Shown here: piece after piece, positions 34,028 through 38,931 of the stretch
Layout: the number at the start of each line of letters is the position of its first letter
Numbering within the stretch: position 1 is the stretch's first letter
Assembly (NCBI RefSeq): GCF_018409545.1
Contig: NZ_AP024563.1
Span: 2,130,001 to 2,194,000, forward strand
Direction: 5' to 3'
Length of the DNA stretch: 64,000 nucleotides
Origin: Allochromatium tepidum
GTDB taxonomy: Bacteria > Pseudomonadota > Gammaproteobacteria > Chromatiales > Chromatiaceae
Notes under the pieces: model-generated
Told to the model about the DNA's origin: nothing
Database searches by the model: none
Seen by the model: only the letters and a program-made list of their open reading frames with translations
Position numbers and translations under genes: made by a program

Positions 34028-36127
34028 TCAGCGCTCCAGTTGCACGCCCTTGAGCACATTGAGCAACACGCCCAGCGTCGTGCCGTTGTGCAGCACGGCG
34101 CTACCCAGGGGCGGCAGGCGACCGCTCACCGCGCCGGCGAGGATCGCGGTATTCAGCCCGACTGCGGCGCGGAAATTGGTCCGGATCAGCCCCATGGTCT
34201 TGGCGGCGATCTCGCGCGCATCGGCCACGGCATCCAGCCGATCGTCCATCAGCAGGATATCCGCCGTCGCACGCGCGATATCCGCACCGCGCGGCATGGC
34301 GATGCCGACATCGGCCACGGTCAGTGCCGGTCCATCGTTGACCCCGTCGCCGACGAAGGCGACCTTAGCTCCTTCGGCTTGCAACGCCTGCACCAGCGCA
34401 GCCTTGTCTTCGGGCACGACCTCGGCATGGATGGCATCGAACCCGAGTTCACGCCCCAGCGCCTCGGCCATGACGCGCCGATCACCCGAGATCATCACCA
34501 GCCGCTCGATCCCCAACCGCCGAAGACGCGCCAGCGTCGCCGGCGTCTCGGCGCGCAGGGTGTCGCGCAGCGCGATCAAGCCCACCGGACCGCGCTCATT
34601 GGCGACATACAGCAGCGTCTTGCCCTCGGACTGAAGCCGTTCGATCCGCTCATCGAAGGGCGAGAAATCGAAGCCTTCATGCGACTGGAGATAGTGACGG
34701 CTGCCGATGACCAGGCGTCCGCTCGCCAACTGCGCCGAGACGCCATGCGCGACCAGATACTCGATCTCGCCATGACTGACGTGCGGCAGATTGCGATCGT
34801 GCGCGGCCTGGACCACGGCATTGGCGATGGGATGACTGGCGTGCTCCTCGATCGAGGCCACCAGTGCCAGCAGATCGCGCTCGCTGCAGCCGGCCTTGGG
34901 TTTGAGCACCTCAACGTCTGTAACCATCAGCTCGCTGTGGGTCAGGGTGCCGGTCTTGTCGAACACGACCGTGTCGACCTCGGCCAGCTGCTCGATGGCA
35001 TCGCCTCCGCGCATCAGCACGCCATACTCGGCCGCGCGCGCCATGCCGGACTTGATGCCGATCGGGGTACCGAGCTTGAGCGCGCAGGCATAGTCGACCA
35101 GGAACACCGACTGCACCCGGCGCGGATCGCGCGTCACGGCATAGACGGCGGCGGCCGTGCCCAGAGTCAGGTTGACGCGCTGATCGGCGAGCCGCTCGGC
35201 CTCGCGCTGGGAGAACGAACGCTTGGCGAGCGCCTCGCGGATGAAGCGTGACACCCGCGCGGCCGTGGTGTCGGCGCCGACCTCGGTGGCCTCGATTCGC
35301 AAGCGCCCCTCGATGACCACGGATCCGCCGAGCGCGCGGCGGAACGGCTCCTTGCGTACCGGCGTGTGCTCGCCGGTGATGGCGGACTGATCGACCAGCG
35401 CCAGCCCCTCGACCACGCGCCCATCGATCGGGATCTGCTCGCCGGCGCCAACCGCCACCAGATCGCCGACGCGCACTTCGCTACCAGGTATCCGGATCAA
35501 GCGACCGTCACGCTCGACCCAGGCCGGCGCCGGATCCGGATGCAACAGCCGCTGCAACAGACGATCGGACTGACGCACCGTGCGCCGCTCCAGATAGGCG
35601 CCGAGTTCGAGCAGCAGCCCGGTGACGGTGGCGGCATAGACCTCGCCGCGCGCGGCGGACAGTCCGATCGCCAGTGCATCCAGCACCTCGACCTTGACGC
35701 CCTCGTTGACCAGCGTGTCCAGACCACGCGCCAGCGTCGGTCCGACCTTGAGTGCCGTCAAACCCAATTTCAGGGGCGCCGGCAGGATCGGCAGCAGGGC
35801 CAGCGTGAGCACCGAAGCGGCCAGCGGCGCCAGCTCGCTCTCAGACTCCTCGCCCGTGTCAAAGGTCTCGTCAGGCTCCGGCTCGCGATAGTCGTCGAGC
35901 CGCCGCAACACCGCCTCGCGGTTCGTCGTCAGTGGATCGAACTCGACGATCAGCGAACGGCTCGCGCGGCTGGCCTGGACGCCGAGCACGCCGGGCAGCG
36001 CCTCCATCCAGGCTTCGAGATCGCCCGGTCCATGGCCGGGCGCACCGAGTCGCGGCAGACGCAGACGCAGACGTCCGGGCAGTTCATGAACGATCCGATA
36101 CGAGAGCACGGCGGCGGCTTGGGACAC
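34028..36127 (-). CDS. P1B-type heavy-metal ATPase of unusual class (FezB-like)
   Basis: A 699-residue P-type ATPase. Residues 8-75 form an HMA-like domain with HELPGRLRLRL but no CxxC. Two or more hydrophobic segments follow (100-180). The actuator has TGE at 251-253, the phosphorylation site is D390KTGT, the HP motif is EEHASHPIANAV, and the hinge VGDGVNDGPAL is intact. In the metal-binding helix the usual CPC/SPC is replaced by DYACALKLGTP with a single Cys348. That departs from the copper, zinc and cobalt classes and fits the class described for ferrosome FezB ATPases. Probable GTG start, with AGGAAG upstream. It is the last gene of a five-gene operon. Confidence 0.88.
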   Translation of the reverse strand: MSQAAAVLSYRIVHELPGRLRLRLPRLGAPGHGPGDLEAWMEALPGVLGVQASRASRSLIVEFDPLTTNREAVLRRLDDYREPEPDETFDTGEESESELAPLAASVLTLALLPILPAPLKLGLTALKVGPTLARGLDTLVNEGVKVEVLDALAIGLSAARGEVYAATVTGLLLELGAYLERRTVRQSDRLLQRLLHPDPAPAWVERDGRLIRIPGSEVRVGDLVAVGAGEQIPIDGRVVEGLALVDQSAITGEHTPVRKEPFRRALGGSVVIEGRLRIEATEVGADTTAARVSRFIREALAKRSFSQREAERLADQRVNLTLGTAAAVYAVTRDPRRVQSVFLVDYACALKLGTPIGIKSGMARAAEYGVLMRGGDAIEQLAEVDTVVFDKTGTLTHSELMVTDVEVLKPKAGCSERDLLALVASIEEHASHPIANAVVQAAHDRNLPHVSHGEIEYLVAHGVSAQLASGRLVIGSRHYLQSHEGFDFSPFDERIERLQSEGKTLLYVANERGPVGLIALRDTLRAETPATLARLRRLGIERLVMISGDRRVMAEALGRELGFDAIHAEVVPEDKAALVQALQAEGAKVAFVGDGVNDGPALTVADVGIAMPRGADIARATADILLMDDRLDAVADAREIAAKTMGLIRTNFRAAVGLNTAILAGAVSGRLPPLGSAVLHNGTTLGVLLNVLKGVQLER

Positions 36128-36163
36128 GGGTCAACTTCCTAGATATGAACGACGAACGCCGGA

Positions 36164-36565
36164 TCAGTCGGAATCCTGACGTTGACTGGCGTGATGGACC
36201 TCGGCCTGGGCGTCGCCGAAGCGCTCCTTGATCTCCTCCAGACCACCCTGCAACAGCGACCAGGCCTGGACCACGCCCTTGATGGCGGTGCGCTGGACCT
36301 GCTCGTTGGTCAGCAGATAGGTCGCAGCGGCGCCGATCAGCAGCCCCTTGAGGAAACGGTCACGCGGCAGGATCGAGGAGGACTGGGCGCGTTGCGGCAG
36401 GCCCTGGTAGACAGACATCTGGGCCTGATAGCCGTAACCGGCCGACTGCCCCCAATGCGGAGCGGCCGCCGGACCCTGGCCGGCCGGCGGCGGTGTCTGT
36501 CCCGGCATCTGTTGCGACATCCAGGGGCCTTGACCCAGACCATAGGAACGATTGTCTTGATTCAT
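36164..36565 (-). CDS. Small membrane protein with FLKGxLxGAAA..LLTN motif
   Basis: A 133-residue protein. The first 65 residues are Gln/Pro/Gly-rich and low-complexity. A hydrophobic helix FLKGLLIGAAATYLLTNEQVQ follows at about residues 80-100 and the C-terminus is charged and helical (GGLEEIKERFGDAQAEVHH). The helix motif recurs in the 188-residue protein of the same operon. The start overlaps the upstream gene as ATGA. I do not know a function; the context suggests a membrane component of a metal-handling compartment. Confidence 0.75.
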   Translation of the reverse strand: MNQDNRSYGLGQGPWMSQQMPGQTPPPAGQGPAAAPHWGQSAGYGYQAQMSVYQGLPQRAQSSSILPRDRFLKGLLIGAAATYLLTNEQVQRTAIKGVVQAWSLLQGGLEEIKERFGDAQAEVHHASQRQDSD

Positions 36566-36753
36566 GAGGATTCTCCGGAAGTCTTGCGATCAGTGGTAGA
36601 CAGAACCGTCGTACCAGCGGAAGCGGGCGTCGCACGGCGCTGGAACAGACCGCGCAGCAGCAGAACCAGCGCCGCGCCGGTCAGAGCGCCGCCGATGCCC
36701 TCGACGAGATTCTTGCGCACGCCATGCTGATGGCGCTGACGTGTATCAGGCAT
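36562..36753 (-). CDS. Very small single-helix membrane protein
   Basis: A 63-residue protein starting at ATG 36753, with GGAG eight bases upstream; the start overlaps the preceding gene by eight bases. It has a basic N-terminus (RQRHQHGVRKN), one glycine-containing helix (IGGALTGAALVLLLRGLF) and a polar tail. Tight overlap with both neighbours supports its reality. No family is recognised. Confidence 0.65.
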   Translation of the reverse strand: MPDTRQRHQHGVRKNLVEGIGGALTGAALVLLLRGLFQRRATPASAGTTVLSTTDRKTSGESS

Positions 36754-37111
36754 GAGGGTTCTCCCGACCTTCGGTCCAATTGGACAGTCCATAGAGCACC
36801 GCCGAGCCGGCCAGGAACAGCAGACCGAGCCGCGATAGTCCCTGATCGGTGAGGCTGGAGGCGATAGCGCCGCCGGCGGCGGTCGCCAAACCGGCCGCCA
36901 CCGCACTCTTGCCGGTCTCCAGCACGGCACGTTGCGGTGTCTGCCCGCCCTCCTGCACCTGGCGCAGTTGACGCGAGGCGGCGAGACTGGCGCCGACGAC
37001 CGCCCCCAGGGTCGCCAGACGCATCAGGTTCGCGCAGTCCGGTCCGGCGGGGTTTGGCGGGGCCGGATACAGGGGATCGAATCTGTCGTGGCTGTAGTCA
37101 TGTGAACTCAT
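36746..37111 (-). CDS. MamC-like membrane protein
   Basis: A 121-residue protein with two hydrophobic segments. The first is LATLGAVVGASLAASRQL, then a polar loop (RQVQEGGQTPQRAVLETGKS), then AVAAGLATAAGGAIASSL and a final helix LGLLFLAGSAVLYGL. From memory, the order GAxVGxxxAxxxxxR, then TGK, then AGLATA closely follows the magnetosome protein MamC (Mms13), whose inter-helix loop touches magnetite. The start overlaps the previous gene as ATGA. The resemblance needs a profile search. Confidence 0.72.
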   Translation of the reverse strand: MSSHDYSHDRFDPLYPAPPNPAGPDCANLMRLATLGAVVGASLAASRQLRQVQEGGQTPQRAVLETGKSAVAAGLATAAGGAIASSLTDQGLSRLGLLFLAGSAVLYGLSNWTEGRENPHA

Positions 37112-37674
37112 GGGGCCGCGTCCGTTTTGTCGGTCTTGGCGCCCGCGCCGAACAGGGCCGACTGAACCGAGCCGTTGGTCAGGAGCAGCACGGCCGCCGC
37201 GCCGACCAGAGCGCCCTTCCAGAAATCGATGTCGTCGAGATCGAGCATCCGGGTCAGACTCGACAGACCGCTGCCGCCGCCGGCCACCTCGTTGACCAGA
37301 TCACTCACCCTGGCCCCGTGACCATGCCCTGCGCCCGCGTGCCCCATGCCGGGCTGTCCGGCGTTTCCGCTCGGACCGGGCGTCGGCTCGACATAGCCGT
37401 ATCCGGGAGGCGGCATGGCGCCTGACCAATAGGGCGCGGCATTCGGCGGCGGATAATAGCCGTGCGGCGGATAGGGATAGGGGTACGGATAGGGCGGCGC
37501 GGAATGGTAGCCCGGTCCTGGTCCGGGACCGCCGACGGGGGCCTGATGATAGGGGGCGCTTGCTTCGCTCCGGCGCGCATCCGGCTCGGCGCCGCCGGCC
37601 TGCCCCTGACTCCAATGATCCGAGCCGGAGCCGGAATCCGGCGTGTTCTTCGCTTCTTGATGGTGTTCGCTCAT
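37108..37674 (-). CDS. Pro/Tyr/Gly-rich protein with C-terminal membrane helix
   Basis: A 188-residue protein and first gene of the ATPase operon. Residues 1-130 are disordered and rich in Gly, Pro, Tyr and His, including a PYPYPYPYPPHGYYPPP run. A C-terminal helix follows with DFWKGALVGAAAVLLLTNGS and VQSALFG, the same pattern as in the 133-residue protein. The start at 37674 has GAGGA five bases upstream. The long disordered part could anchor or cluster material at a membrane; that is speculation. Confidence 0.75.
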   Translation of the reverse strand: MSEHHQEAKNTPDSGSGSDHWSQGQAGGAEPDARRSEASAPYHQAPVGGPGPGPGYHSAPPYPYPYPYPPHGYYPPPNAAPYWSGAMPPPGYGYVEPTPGPSGNAGQPGMGHAGAGHGHGARVSDLVNEVAGGGSGLSSLTRMLDLDDIDFWKGALVGAAAVLLLTNGSVQSALFGAGAKTDKTDAAP

Positions 37675-37775
37675 CGGTTCCTCTGCGGGTCGTTGACGGT
37701 TCCCAGACGTGATGGCGCCCAATGCGGCCAACCAGGATCCAACAGGGGACATAGCTTAAACAGACTGCTCGCAAA

Positions 37776-37804
37776 ATGTAAATAAGATTAAATGCTATTT
37801 ACAT
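37776..37804. promoter_or_regulatory. Perfect 9-bp inverted repeat in divergent promoter region
   Basis: ATGTAAATA at 37776-37784 and its exact complement TATTTACAT at 37796-37804 are separated by 11 bases. The stretch is AT-rich within otherwise GC-rich DNA and lies in the 196 bases between the two divergent operons of the metal locus. It looks like an operator for a dimeric regulator. Resemblance to a Fur box is weak. Confidence 0.6.
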
Positions 37805-37870
37805 CCAGCTTCGAATCCACTATAAAACTTCCATGGTTTTCGCCCTCAACGCCTTGAGAGTGTCCTGGTC

Positions 37871-38476
37871 ATGCCGAGTCCTGTGAAGACGATGGAGTTA
37901 AAGCCCAAGCAACTGGAGATCCGCCACCAGATCCCCGGACGGATTCGGTTGCATGTTCCGGCACTGCGGGACGATCCGCAGCTGAGTGAGCGTCTGACGC
38001 GCGCACTGACTCAGATCGAAGGGGTGCGTGGTGTGCGCTGGAATCCGGCCTGTTCCAGTCTGGTGGTGTGGCACCGGCGAGCCGGGCCGCTGACTCAGGC
38101 GGAATTGGATCAGGTGCTGTATCCAGTGCTCCATCGCGCGGCCGCACGCCGACCGGCGCGGATCGAGTCAAGCCGCGCGGCGCCCGAGGCGCTGAAGATA
38201 CGCACAGCACTCGCCAAACGACTCCCCTCCCCTACGCGGGCGCAATCTCTCGTCGAGACAACGGCGAACTGGCGTTCCCGGCTGGTGCGGCCGACCTCCT
38301 GGCGCCTGCCGTTGCCGATGCGCCTCTCCGCCGCGCGCAAGGTCGCGACGACACCGGCGACCAAACCTGTCTGTCGGCTCTGTCAGCTCAAACTGACGCT
38401 GGCGCGCTGGATCTTTGCCGATATCTGGCGTTGCTGGACGAATGAGCTGACGACGCAGCGTACCCAGGCGCGTTGA
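37871..38476 (+). CDS. HMA-like domain protein (possible FezC-type)
   Basis: A 201-residue protein. Residues 14-75 form an HMA-like fold with HQIPGRIRLHVP, GVRGVRWNPACSSLVV and no CxxC metal site. A basic linker follows. Near the C-terminus there is a CRLC pair (168-171) and a Trp-rich amphipathic or membrane helix (LTLARWIFADIWRCW). It is divergent from the ATPase operon, whose N-terminal domain it resembles. The start at 37871 is tentative; an internal ATG at 37892 is possible. Confidence 0.75.
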   Translation: MPSPVKTMELKPKQLEIRHQIPGRIRLHVPALRDDPQLSERLTRALTQIEGVRGVRWNPACSSLVVWHRRAGPLTQAELDQVLYPVLHRAAARRPARIESSRAAPEALKIRTALAKRLPSPTRAQSLVETTANWRSRLVRPTSWRLPLPMRLSAARKVATTPATKPVCRLCQLKLTLARWIFADIWRCWTNELTTQRTQAR

Positions 38477-38497
38477 GCGATCGCTGAAATCAGGACT

Positions 38498-38533
38498 TGC
38501 ATTCTCCTTTTTTGCTCATAAAATGAGAATGCA
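38498..38533. repeat. 9-bp inverted repeat upstream of second HMA-like gene
   Basis: TGCATTCTC (38498-38506) and its exact complement GAGAATGCA (38525-38533) are separated by 18 bases of T- and A-rich sequence. The right arm lies inside the Fur-box-like site, so the left arm may be a second half-site for the same regulator. Confidence 0.55.
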
Positions 38534-38540
38534 TCGCATT
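38522..38540 (+). promoter_or_regulatory. Fur-box-like operator
   Basis: The 19 bases AATGAGAATGCATCGCATT contain AATGC-ATC-GCATT dyad symmetry and match the canonical Fur pattern (AATGATAATxATTATCATT phase) at about 13 of 19 positions by eye. It lies 38 bases before the ATG of the 117-residue HMA-like gene, in an AT-rich patch. Iron-dependent repression is inferred from sequence only. Confidence 0.5.
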
Positions 38541-38577
38541 TAATTTTCATTTCCAGGCATCACCGAGCGAGGTCTCC

Positions 38578-38931
38578 ATGCATCACTCGATCCATCATGT
38601 CCCCGGTCGTTTGCGTGTCCGTTCAGCGGCATTCCGGTGCCGGCCCGGAACAGTCGATTCCGCACAAGCGCAACTGCGCGCACTCGACGGCGTCGAGCAG
38701 ATCCGCTTCAACCGCGCCGCCGGTAGTCTGGTCATCCATTACGATCCGGCACGCCTGGATCATCATCGACTGCTGGAGATGCTCAAAGAGACGGGCTGCG
38801 CCGATCTGTCGTCGGCGAGTGAGGCTGTGATCTCGAAGGCGGGTGCCCTGTTCGGCAAGGCGCTCGTCGGGGCGGTCGTCAACAAGGCCGTCGAGCGCTC
38901 GGCCTTCCGTCTGGTCAGCGTGTTGCTGTAA
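38578..38931 (+). CDS. Small HMA-like domain protein
   Basis: A 117-residue protein. Residues 3-70 form an HMA-like domain with SIHHVPGRLRVRS and GSLVIHYDPARLDHHRLLEML, again without CxxC. The C-terminal 30 residues are a hydrophobic, glycine-containing helix (AGALFGKALVGAVVNKAV) followed by SAFRLVSVLL. The PGRLR signature is shared with the P-type ATPase and the neighbouring 201-residue protein. A strong terminator follows. The AT-rich leader has a Fur-box-like site. Confidence 0.82.
   Translation: MHHSIHHVPGRLRVRSAAFRCRPGTVDSAQAQLRALDGVEQIRFNRAAGSLVIHYDPARLDHHRLLEMLKETGCADLSSASEAVISKAGALFGKALVGAVVNKAVERSAFRLVSVLL

Follow-up and report, generated by a model that had tools for sequence, protein, structure and literature searches.

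The seven-gene cluster

In this study we describe a cluster of seven genes in a 64,000-nt stretch of the Allochromatium tepidum genome (NZ_AP024563.1, 2,130,001-2,194,000; this whole stretch is called the window here, and positions are counted within it). The cluster, a candidate ferrosome (fez) locus, combines a P1B-type ATPase with two HMA_2 proteins and four small membrane proteins, one of them a relative of the magnetosome protein MamC (Table 1). An earlier note on this DNA had read it as seven genes in two divergent units, and this description holds, since all seven open reading frames (ORFs) are present with the overlaps that had been claimed. Five genes form a minus-strand operon in the order g5, MamC-like, g3, g2, ATPase. 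The first four overlap successively by 4, 8 and 4 bp, a gap of 36 bp separates g2 from the ATPase, and the two HMA_2 genes diverge from the operon on the plus strand. The small proteins had been called glycine-rich membrane proteins, which is correct, and g5 and g2 additionally carry long Pro/Gly/Tyr/His-rich N-termini. The membrane domains of g2 and g5 are homologous to each other (hhalign 98.4%, E 6e-15), and the g2 family shows weak similarity to SARAF/YtxH. The inverted repeat of the divergent promoter gap was not seen in the matching gaps of two related loci (L032, L033).

Table 1. Features of the cluster by position in the window
Feature	Position	Strand	Remarks
ATPase, FezB-type P1B, 699 aa, GTG start	34028..36127	-	PGRLR domain at N-terminus without CxxC; TM4 (fourth transmembrane segment) VDYACALKLG; DKTGT; HNGTT in last membrane helix
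g2, 133 aa	36164..36565	-	P/G/Q/Y-rich N-terminus; membrane segment KGLLIGAAATYLLTNE; Glu-rich C-terminal part
g3, small membrane protein, 63 aa	36562..36753	-	mainly Chromatiaceae
MamC-family membrane protein, 121 aa	36746..37111	-	three helices predicted, mean pLDDT 69
g5, 188 aa	37108..37674	-	P/G/Y/H-rich N-terminus; FWKGALVGAAAVLLLTN membrane domain homologous to that of g2
Inverted repeat ATGTAAATA-N11-TATTTACAT	37776..37804		perfect; within divergent promoter gap
HMA_2 protein, 201 aa	37871..38476	+	QIPGRIR domain at N-terminus
Fur-box-like palindrome AATGAGAATGCATCGCATT	38522..38540		top Fur-consensus match of the 64-kb window
HMA_2 protein, 117 aa	38578..38931	+	HMA-like fold predicted, no CxxC; C-terminal helix of low confidence

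The shared PGRLR domain of the earlier note is likewise real: both HMA_2 proteins and the N-terminal part of the ATPase contain a PGR[LI]R motif. The HMA_2 proteins score 46.6 and 35.9 bits against Pfam PF19991 (HMA_2, cutoff 30), and the ATPase N-terminus falls below that cutoff (20.1 bits, E 7e-4). All 23 of 23 aligned relatives of the 117-aa protein match PF19991 at E<=0.05. Its AlphaFold model has pLDDT values of 83-97 up to residue ~70 and of 64 and lower beyond, in the C-terminal helix. HMA domains dominate the solved-structure matches of this model (best VIA, Z 10.3, 73 aligned residues, 2.3 Å), and the best Foldseek match, again to an HMA domain, had E 1.2e-3, so that none reached E<=0.001. 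The 117-aa protein of the window and its aligned Shewanella relatives carry no CxxC, and a single Cys precedes helix 1 in several Chromatiales. For these HMA_2 domains, docking or regulation would be a better fit than the delivery of soft metals.

Class of the ATPase and conservation of its partners

The ATPase passes the P1B model TIGR01525 of NCBIfam (491.6 bits, cutoff 346). At the place in TM4 where copper and zinc pumps have CPC it reads VDYACALKLG, and both CPC and MxxSS are absent from it. In a motif census of 125 distinct ATPases picked by D[YF][SA]CxxK and 24 other ATPases compared with them, HN.[TS]T occurred in the last helix of 120/125 of the former and 0/24 of the latter. CxxC stood within the first 110 residues in just 2/122 long D[YF][SA]CxxK ATPases, as against 21/23 long other P1B ATPases within the first 300 residues, and PGRxR was present in 86/122 of the long D[YF][SA]CxxK proteins. 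A maximum-likelihood tree of 48 rows separated 36 D[YF][SA]CxxK ATPases, including that of the window, from 12 other P1B ATPases with support 100/99. These 12 were E. coli CopA, E. coli ZntA and ten more, with P1B-4, P1B-5 and proven FezB proteins outside the tree; a P1B-5 row is lacking because S. meliloti Nia was not seen in the viewed stretch of pSymA. Long branches lead to the outside rows closest to the D[YF][SA]CxxK clade, one ATPase of DYGTG type and two of CPCST type. The unusual P1B class that the earlier note had proposed is thus borne out, in that the ATPase stands apart from the CopA and ZntA clades, at the support given and among the classes that the tree holds, and has signature motifs of its own.

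Could the protein nevertheless export or store another metal, such as Zn, Cd, Co or Mn? A match above cutoff is also obtained with TIGR01512, the generic model of the Cd family (366.9 bits, cutoff 313.5), and this match, taken alone, would suggest an ordinary heavy-metal exporter. However, the tree, which holds no P1B-4 or P1B-5 representatives, places the ATPase apart from the clades of ZntA and CopA at high support, the protein lacks CPC and MxxSS, and its cluster contains the Fur-like boxes described below. We therefore regard a pump for one of these other metals as very unlikely.

Several further ATPases were noted in the course of this comparison. The long-branch nearest neighbour of the FezB-like clade is a Rhizobiales P-type ATPase whose TM4, DYGTGIR, has no Cys (L168:7612-10116). 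A further ATPase type, of which two Chromatiaceae examples were seen (L066:8237-10399, L067:7206-9374), has an N-terminus resembling HMA_2 and reads SCPCST in TM4; it forms a distinct deep clade. Three relatives of the ATPase (G313 C46, G936 C2, G1074 C1) have one in-frame stop codon apiece and are perhaps decaying. The A. tepidum genome itself carries at ~1.273 Mb (L031:8804-9964) a second, truncated ATPase of 387 residues, which corresponds to positions 311-697 of the window protein with 68% identity. A tblastn search of an 18-kb stretch found no partner gene near this copy, apparently left over from another fez-type cluster.

A close match to the ATPase (E below 1e-220) was present in 19/77 Chromatiaceae genomes, and 8/397 sampled Pseudomonadota genomes passed E 1e-97, the A. 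tepidum genome being included in both counts. We viewed the neighbourhoods in 17 of the 18 other Chromatiaceae genomes with a close ATPase, the contig of the 18th being only 3.1 kb long. Beside the ATPase stood g2 in 17/17, the MamC-like gene in 16/17, g5 in 16/17 and g3 in 14/17 of them; at one of the loci surveyed in this family (L039) the contig stops within the cluster. As the partners recur beside the ATPase from genome to genome across the Chromatiaceae, the seven-gene cluster is not a chance assembly.

A scan of named genomes yielded at least 596 stretches, at least 593 of them confirmed, and we studied the best 80 of these at least 593, nearly all from Gammaproteobacteria. With 9 loci dropped, 71 were usable (full ATPase ORF and >=3.5 kb upstream). 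All of these had g2 (71/71) and the MamC-like gene (71/71), and 69/71 had g5, the two without it being L116 and L143; a separate HMA_2 gene besides the ATPase was found in 62/71 and two or more in 50/71. The profiles for g2, the MamC-like protein and g5 had been built in part from the same named loci. A looser count that did not require distinct ORFs and was confined to loci outside profile building gave 50/50 for the MamC-like protein, 60/60 for g2 and 58/58 for g5. In Shewanella, Photobacterium, Vibrio, Ferrimonas and Kluyvera a six-gene order is found, with one divergent HMA_2 gene followed by HMA_2, g5, MamC-like, g2 and ATPase, so that six of the seven genes of the window recur together there (ATPase, g2, MamC-like, g5 and two HMA_2). 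The seventh, g3, was detected by phmmer in 27/80 named loci, of which 22 are titled Chromatiaceae and five are unclassified or Chromatiales metagenome-assembled genomes; it is an extra gene seen mainly in Chromatiaceae.

Among 18 further loci from outside the Gammaproteobacteria, 17 had g2 and 13 had the MamC-like gene (E<=1e-3), three of these 13 matches being weak (22-26 bits; Cereibacter and two Azospirillum). The MamC-like gene was not found in four intact alphaproteobacterial loci (L061, L063, L064, L182), and a disrupted locus (L065) had none of the partner genes. The earlier note had taken the MamC-like member for an unusual accessory, and here it was mistaken, as the gene accompanies every one of the 71 testable, mainly gammaproteobacterial relatives and most of the 18 other loci. 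By these counts a MamC-family protein is a regular part of the putative fez-type operons of Gammaproteobacteria and of many alphaproteobacterial ones.

Two variations in gene content were observed as well. Two MamC-like ORFs per cluster occur in L075, L077 and L079 (Halochromatium/Lamprobacter type) and in L162 and L163 (Rhizobiales). A Lys-rich protein of ~155 aa, ending in CK[RK]CPA...CKCAMKKFNL, adjoins the divergent HMA_2 gene in loci of Shewanella type and Photobacterium (L122:4009-4473, L099:4258-4734, L206:12809-13288) and is possibly a further cluster component.

Kinship of the small membrane protein with MamC

MamC is a protein of the magnetic organelles of magnetotactic bacteria. The 121-aa protein of the window matches the NCBIfam MamC model NF038051 with E 9e-10 and 38.7 bits, short of the equivalog cutoff of 100, and 33/35 aligned MamC-like cluster members from Chromatiales, Enterobacterales and Rhizobiales match it at E<=0.01. 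As a reference for MamC we used 11 proteins above the cutoff from a single alphaproteobacterial order (11/48 genomes with one), presumably from magnetotactic organisms. Aligned by hhalign, the profile of the fez MamC-like proteins and that of true MamC matched over 81 of 97 columns with a probability of 98.5% (E 1.5e-15), and the controls g2 and g5 reached probabilities of 0.1% and 0.4% against the same MamC. The true-MamC profile matched 80 of 7,623 ORFs in the 80 named loci, spread over 70 loci and all also found by the fez MamC-like profile; against reversed sequences it gave no match at E<=1, and among the 18 non-gammaproteobacterial loci it matched 3. These matches and the g2 and g5 controls show homology rather than a common glycine-rich composition, and the kinship of the window protein with MamC is strong.

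Other approaches to the protein gave little. Pfam has no usable name for its family, phmmer against PDB sequences returned nothing meaningful, and the structure model is of low confidence (pTM 0.32). Nor is the relation to MamC a simple one, since three ATPase-bearing genomes of the reference order (G094, G157, G169) had no MamC match at E<=0.001. In another set of genomes, a match above the MamC cutoff was found in 0/11. The acidic pair Glu66/Asp70 of AMB-1 MamC has been implicated in magnetite binding, according to an excerpt of PMC6584501. At what appear to be the same positions the window protein has Arg/Glu and a Shewanella protein Met/Lys, so the magnetite-facing pair seems not to be kept in the fez version.

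Might the cluster then be related to a magnetosome gene set, or be what remains of one, with MamC pointing to magnetic mineral formation? The MamC homology is genuine, which speaks for this; however, Pfam and NCBIfam scans of eight proteins of the cluster region named no other magnetosome family, the magnetite-binding pair is seemingly not kept, and the MamC cutoff was nowhere exceeded in the 11 genomes. We consider such an origin scarcely credible. A different relation between the two organelles appears possible, at somewhat short of an even chance: ferrosomes and magnetosomes might have a common membrane-protein lineage, MamC and the fez protein descending from one membrane protein of an iron organelle, which magnetosomes could have taken over from a ferrosome-like compartment of far wider occurrence. 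As the acidic pair is seemingly absent from the fez version, membrane shaping or scaffolding, and not mineral templating, is suggested as the older role.

The two bacterial iron organelles, ferrosome and magnetosome, would in this way be tied through one protein family. If this is true, MamC function would become accessible through straightforward genetic work in Shewanella or R. palustris, and there would be a testable molecular lead on how magnetosomes arose. In the literature searched we recognised no paper joining MamC and ferrosomes; the founding ferrosome papers, which lie outside that literature, may already note the link, and unless they do, a MamC family in a fez-type cluster should come as a surprise to specialists. 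MamC-GFP serves as a marker in work of which an excerpt is available (PMC12713370).

Putative iron control and the proposed ferrosome reading

We scanned for Fur sites with a 19-bp consensus that we took to be AATGATAATNATTATCATT. The best match in the window (38522-38540, 13/18 positions) lies between the two HMA_2 genes, in front of the 117-aa one, and of eight window positions with at least 11 matches four fall in the two promoter gaps of the cluster, which are AT-rich for this genome. A first scan of the relatives, in another phase of the consensus, had given 9/79 loci at p<=0.01 and was only suggestive; the palindrome-centred scans came after it. In these, 14/18 Chromatiales loci (window included, 300 shuffles per locus; the 14 include three Thiocapsa loci, which are not independent) had a Fur-like site at p<=0.05 in the region from 200 bp before the start of the 117-aa HMA_2 gene to 60 bp inside it. 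In 6/8 Shewanella loci the divergent HMA_2 gene is preceded, at a distance of 5-19 bp, by the exact palindrome TGATAATCATTATCA. In 15/43 loci with a divergent HMA_2 gene the best Fur site of this region ranks first in its locus, although such regions make up 3% of the sequence. Among 12 plasmid relatives five were viewed, four of them annotated, and iron-uptake genes adjoin two of these four (Cereibacter; Azospirillum Cd). With such sites, the cluster may be iron-regulated by Fur.

Given the class of the ATPase, the conserved gene set and the Fur-like boxes, we consider it quite probable that the locus is a fez-type (ferrosome) cluster of the six-gene kind with one small gene more, that it is iron-regulated, and that its ATPase pumps Fe(II) into membrane compartments. 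These same three lines support the fez-type interpretation of the earlier note; its identification of FezC with an HMA-domain protein falls away together with the supposed accessory, since published FezC is a DUF4405-like cytochrome, as stated in part of PMC10979944. Fe(II) is given for P1B-6 in Table 4 of a review (PMC7558416, in part).

A number of points weigh against this reading, among them the TIGR01512 match discussed above. Membership was judged by ATPase class, number and set of genes, genus (Shewanella) and regulation, with the proven FezB proteins of D. magneticus, R. palustris, S. putrefaciens and C. difficile outside the comparison. The D[YF][SA]CxxK clade is one that we take to be P1B-6, and the tree has no labelled P1B-6 row. 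The FezC-type cytochrome (PF14358) was not found among the eight cluster-region proteins scanned, and the sole PF14358 match in the A. tepidum genome lies elsewhere and below the cutoff. This model is unspecific, matching in 9/14 control genomes too; Shewanella, Ferrimonas and Vibrio genomes also have their PF14358 matches away from the ATPase, so that FezC would mark the D. magneticus type only. With regard to iron control, the site at 38522-38540 is imperfect (79/5000 dinucleotide shuffles of its gap reach 13), the divergent-promoter gap has at best 11/18, not above its own shuffles (1041/5000 reach 11), and no iron genes adjoin the other two of the four annotated plasmid relatives. Finally, the genomes searched include two more from this genus, and a close ATPase match is absent from both.

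The strongest competitor is an Fe(II) efflux platform in the plasma membrane, in which a cluster of ATPase and scaffold in the inner membrane would export surplus iron without any organelle, much as PacL1 and CtpC are arranged. PacL1, itself a small membrane protein, is encoded in the same operon as a P1B ATPase and forms foci and large complexes with it (PMC9374683, in part), and small membrane proteins likewise stand beside the P1B ATPase in the window. However, the small proteins of the window showed no match to DUF1490 (PF07371) at E<=1, and derepression on starvation of the Fur type, as the boxes would imply, has the wrong sign for an efflux pump. In addition, the six-gene fez locus of R. 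palustris (RPA2333-2338) yields ferrosomes, as reported in an excerpt of PMC12016538. This counts for the fez reading, as do the Shewanella and Photobacterium loci, whose six genes keep g5, MamC-like, g2 and ATPase in the order of the window. An efflux platform is in our view unlikely.

In the ferrosome mechanism that we infer, with Fe(II) as substrate, vesicle formation and a role for each small protein, iron starvation would lift Fur repression and the cluster proteins would be made. The MamC-like protein, g2, g5 and g3 might then populate and shape a patch of the inner membrane or a vesicle, into whose lumen the FezB-type ATPase would move Fe(II) from the cytosol. Where copper and zinc pumps have their motifs, the transport site of this ATPase would have the Cys of TM4 and the His-Asn-x-Thr-Thr of the last helix, and the HMA_2 domains without CxxC could serve as docking or regulatory modules rather than as soft-metal chaperones. 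When iron returns, the compartment would fill and act as store and buffer. This would point to iron storage of the ferrosome type in purple sulfur bacteria, which are phototrophic and need much iron.

Among the known systems, fezABC of Desulfovibrio magneticus RS-1 resembles the cluster, judged by description of FezA and FezB, in encoding the FezB transporter alongside other membrane proteins. It differs in its FezC, which in this species and in Desulfurispirillum indicum is a DUF4405-like haem protein according to part of PMC10979944, a cytochrome of which the window cluster has none. In C. difficile, ferrosomes require FezA and FezB, both repressed by Fur (excerpt of PMC12574912) and encoded by CD630_05910-05920 (excerpt of PMC11651100). 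By description this is again a membrane protein with a transporter; however, two genes are named there and six or seven make up the fez-type loci described here. The PacL1-CtpC system of Mycobacterium shares with the cluster a single operon for a P1B ATPase and a small scaffold-like membrane protein (PMC9374683, in part), whereas its substrate is zinc and its DUF1490 domain has no match among the small proteins of the window. Magnetosome MamC (Mms13) is homologous to the window protein over 81 of 97 positions; the latter departs from it in scoring below the equivalog cutoff and in that the acidic pair contacting magnetite is seemingly not kept.

The closest likeness is to the six-gene fez loci. 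Grant et al. in 2022 reportedly described such an operon, with a P1B-6 ATPase, in S. putrefaciens, and from genus and gene number we infer that the Shewanella-type loci of our survey correspond to this published operon. In R. palustris, RPA2333-2338 drop together with iron genes in low light, as an excerpt of PMC6879726 reports. The loci of other Shewanella species are homologous to six of the seven genes of the window; for R. palustris and S. putrefaciens themselves, whose own sequences stood outside the comparison, the likeness is one of gene number. Unlike the Shewanella loci, the window has g3 as a seventh gene, and both of its HMA_2 genes diverge from the operon, whereas in Shewanella one diverges and one leads the operon. 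Most likely the kind of ferrosome is one already known, to which the locus of the purple sulfur bacterium adds one small gene.

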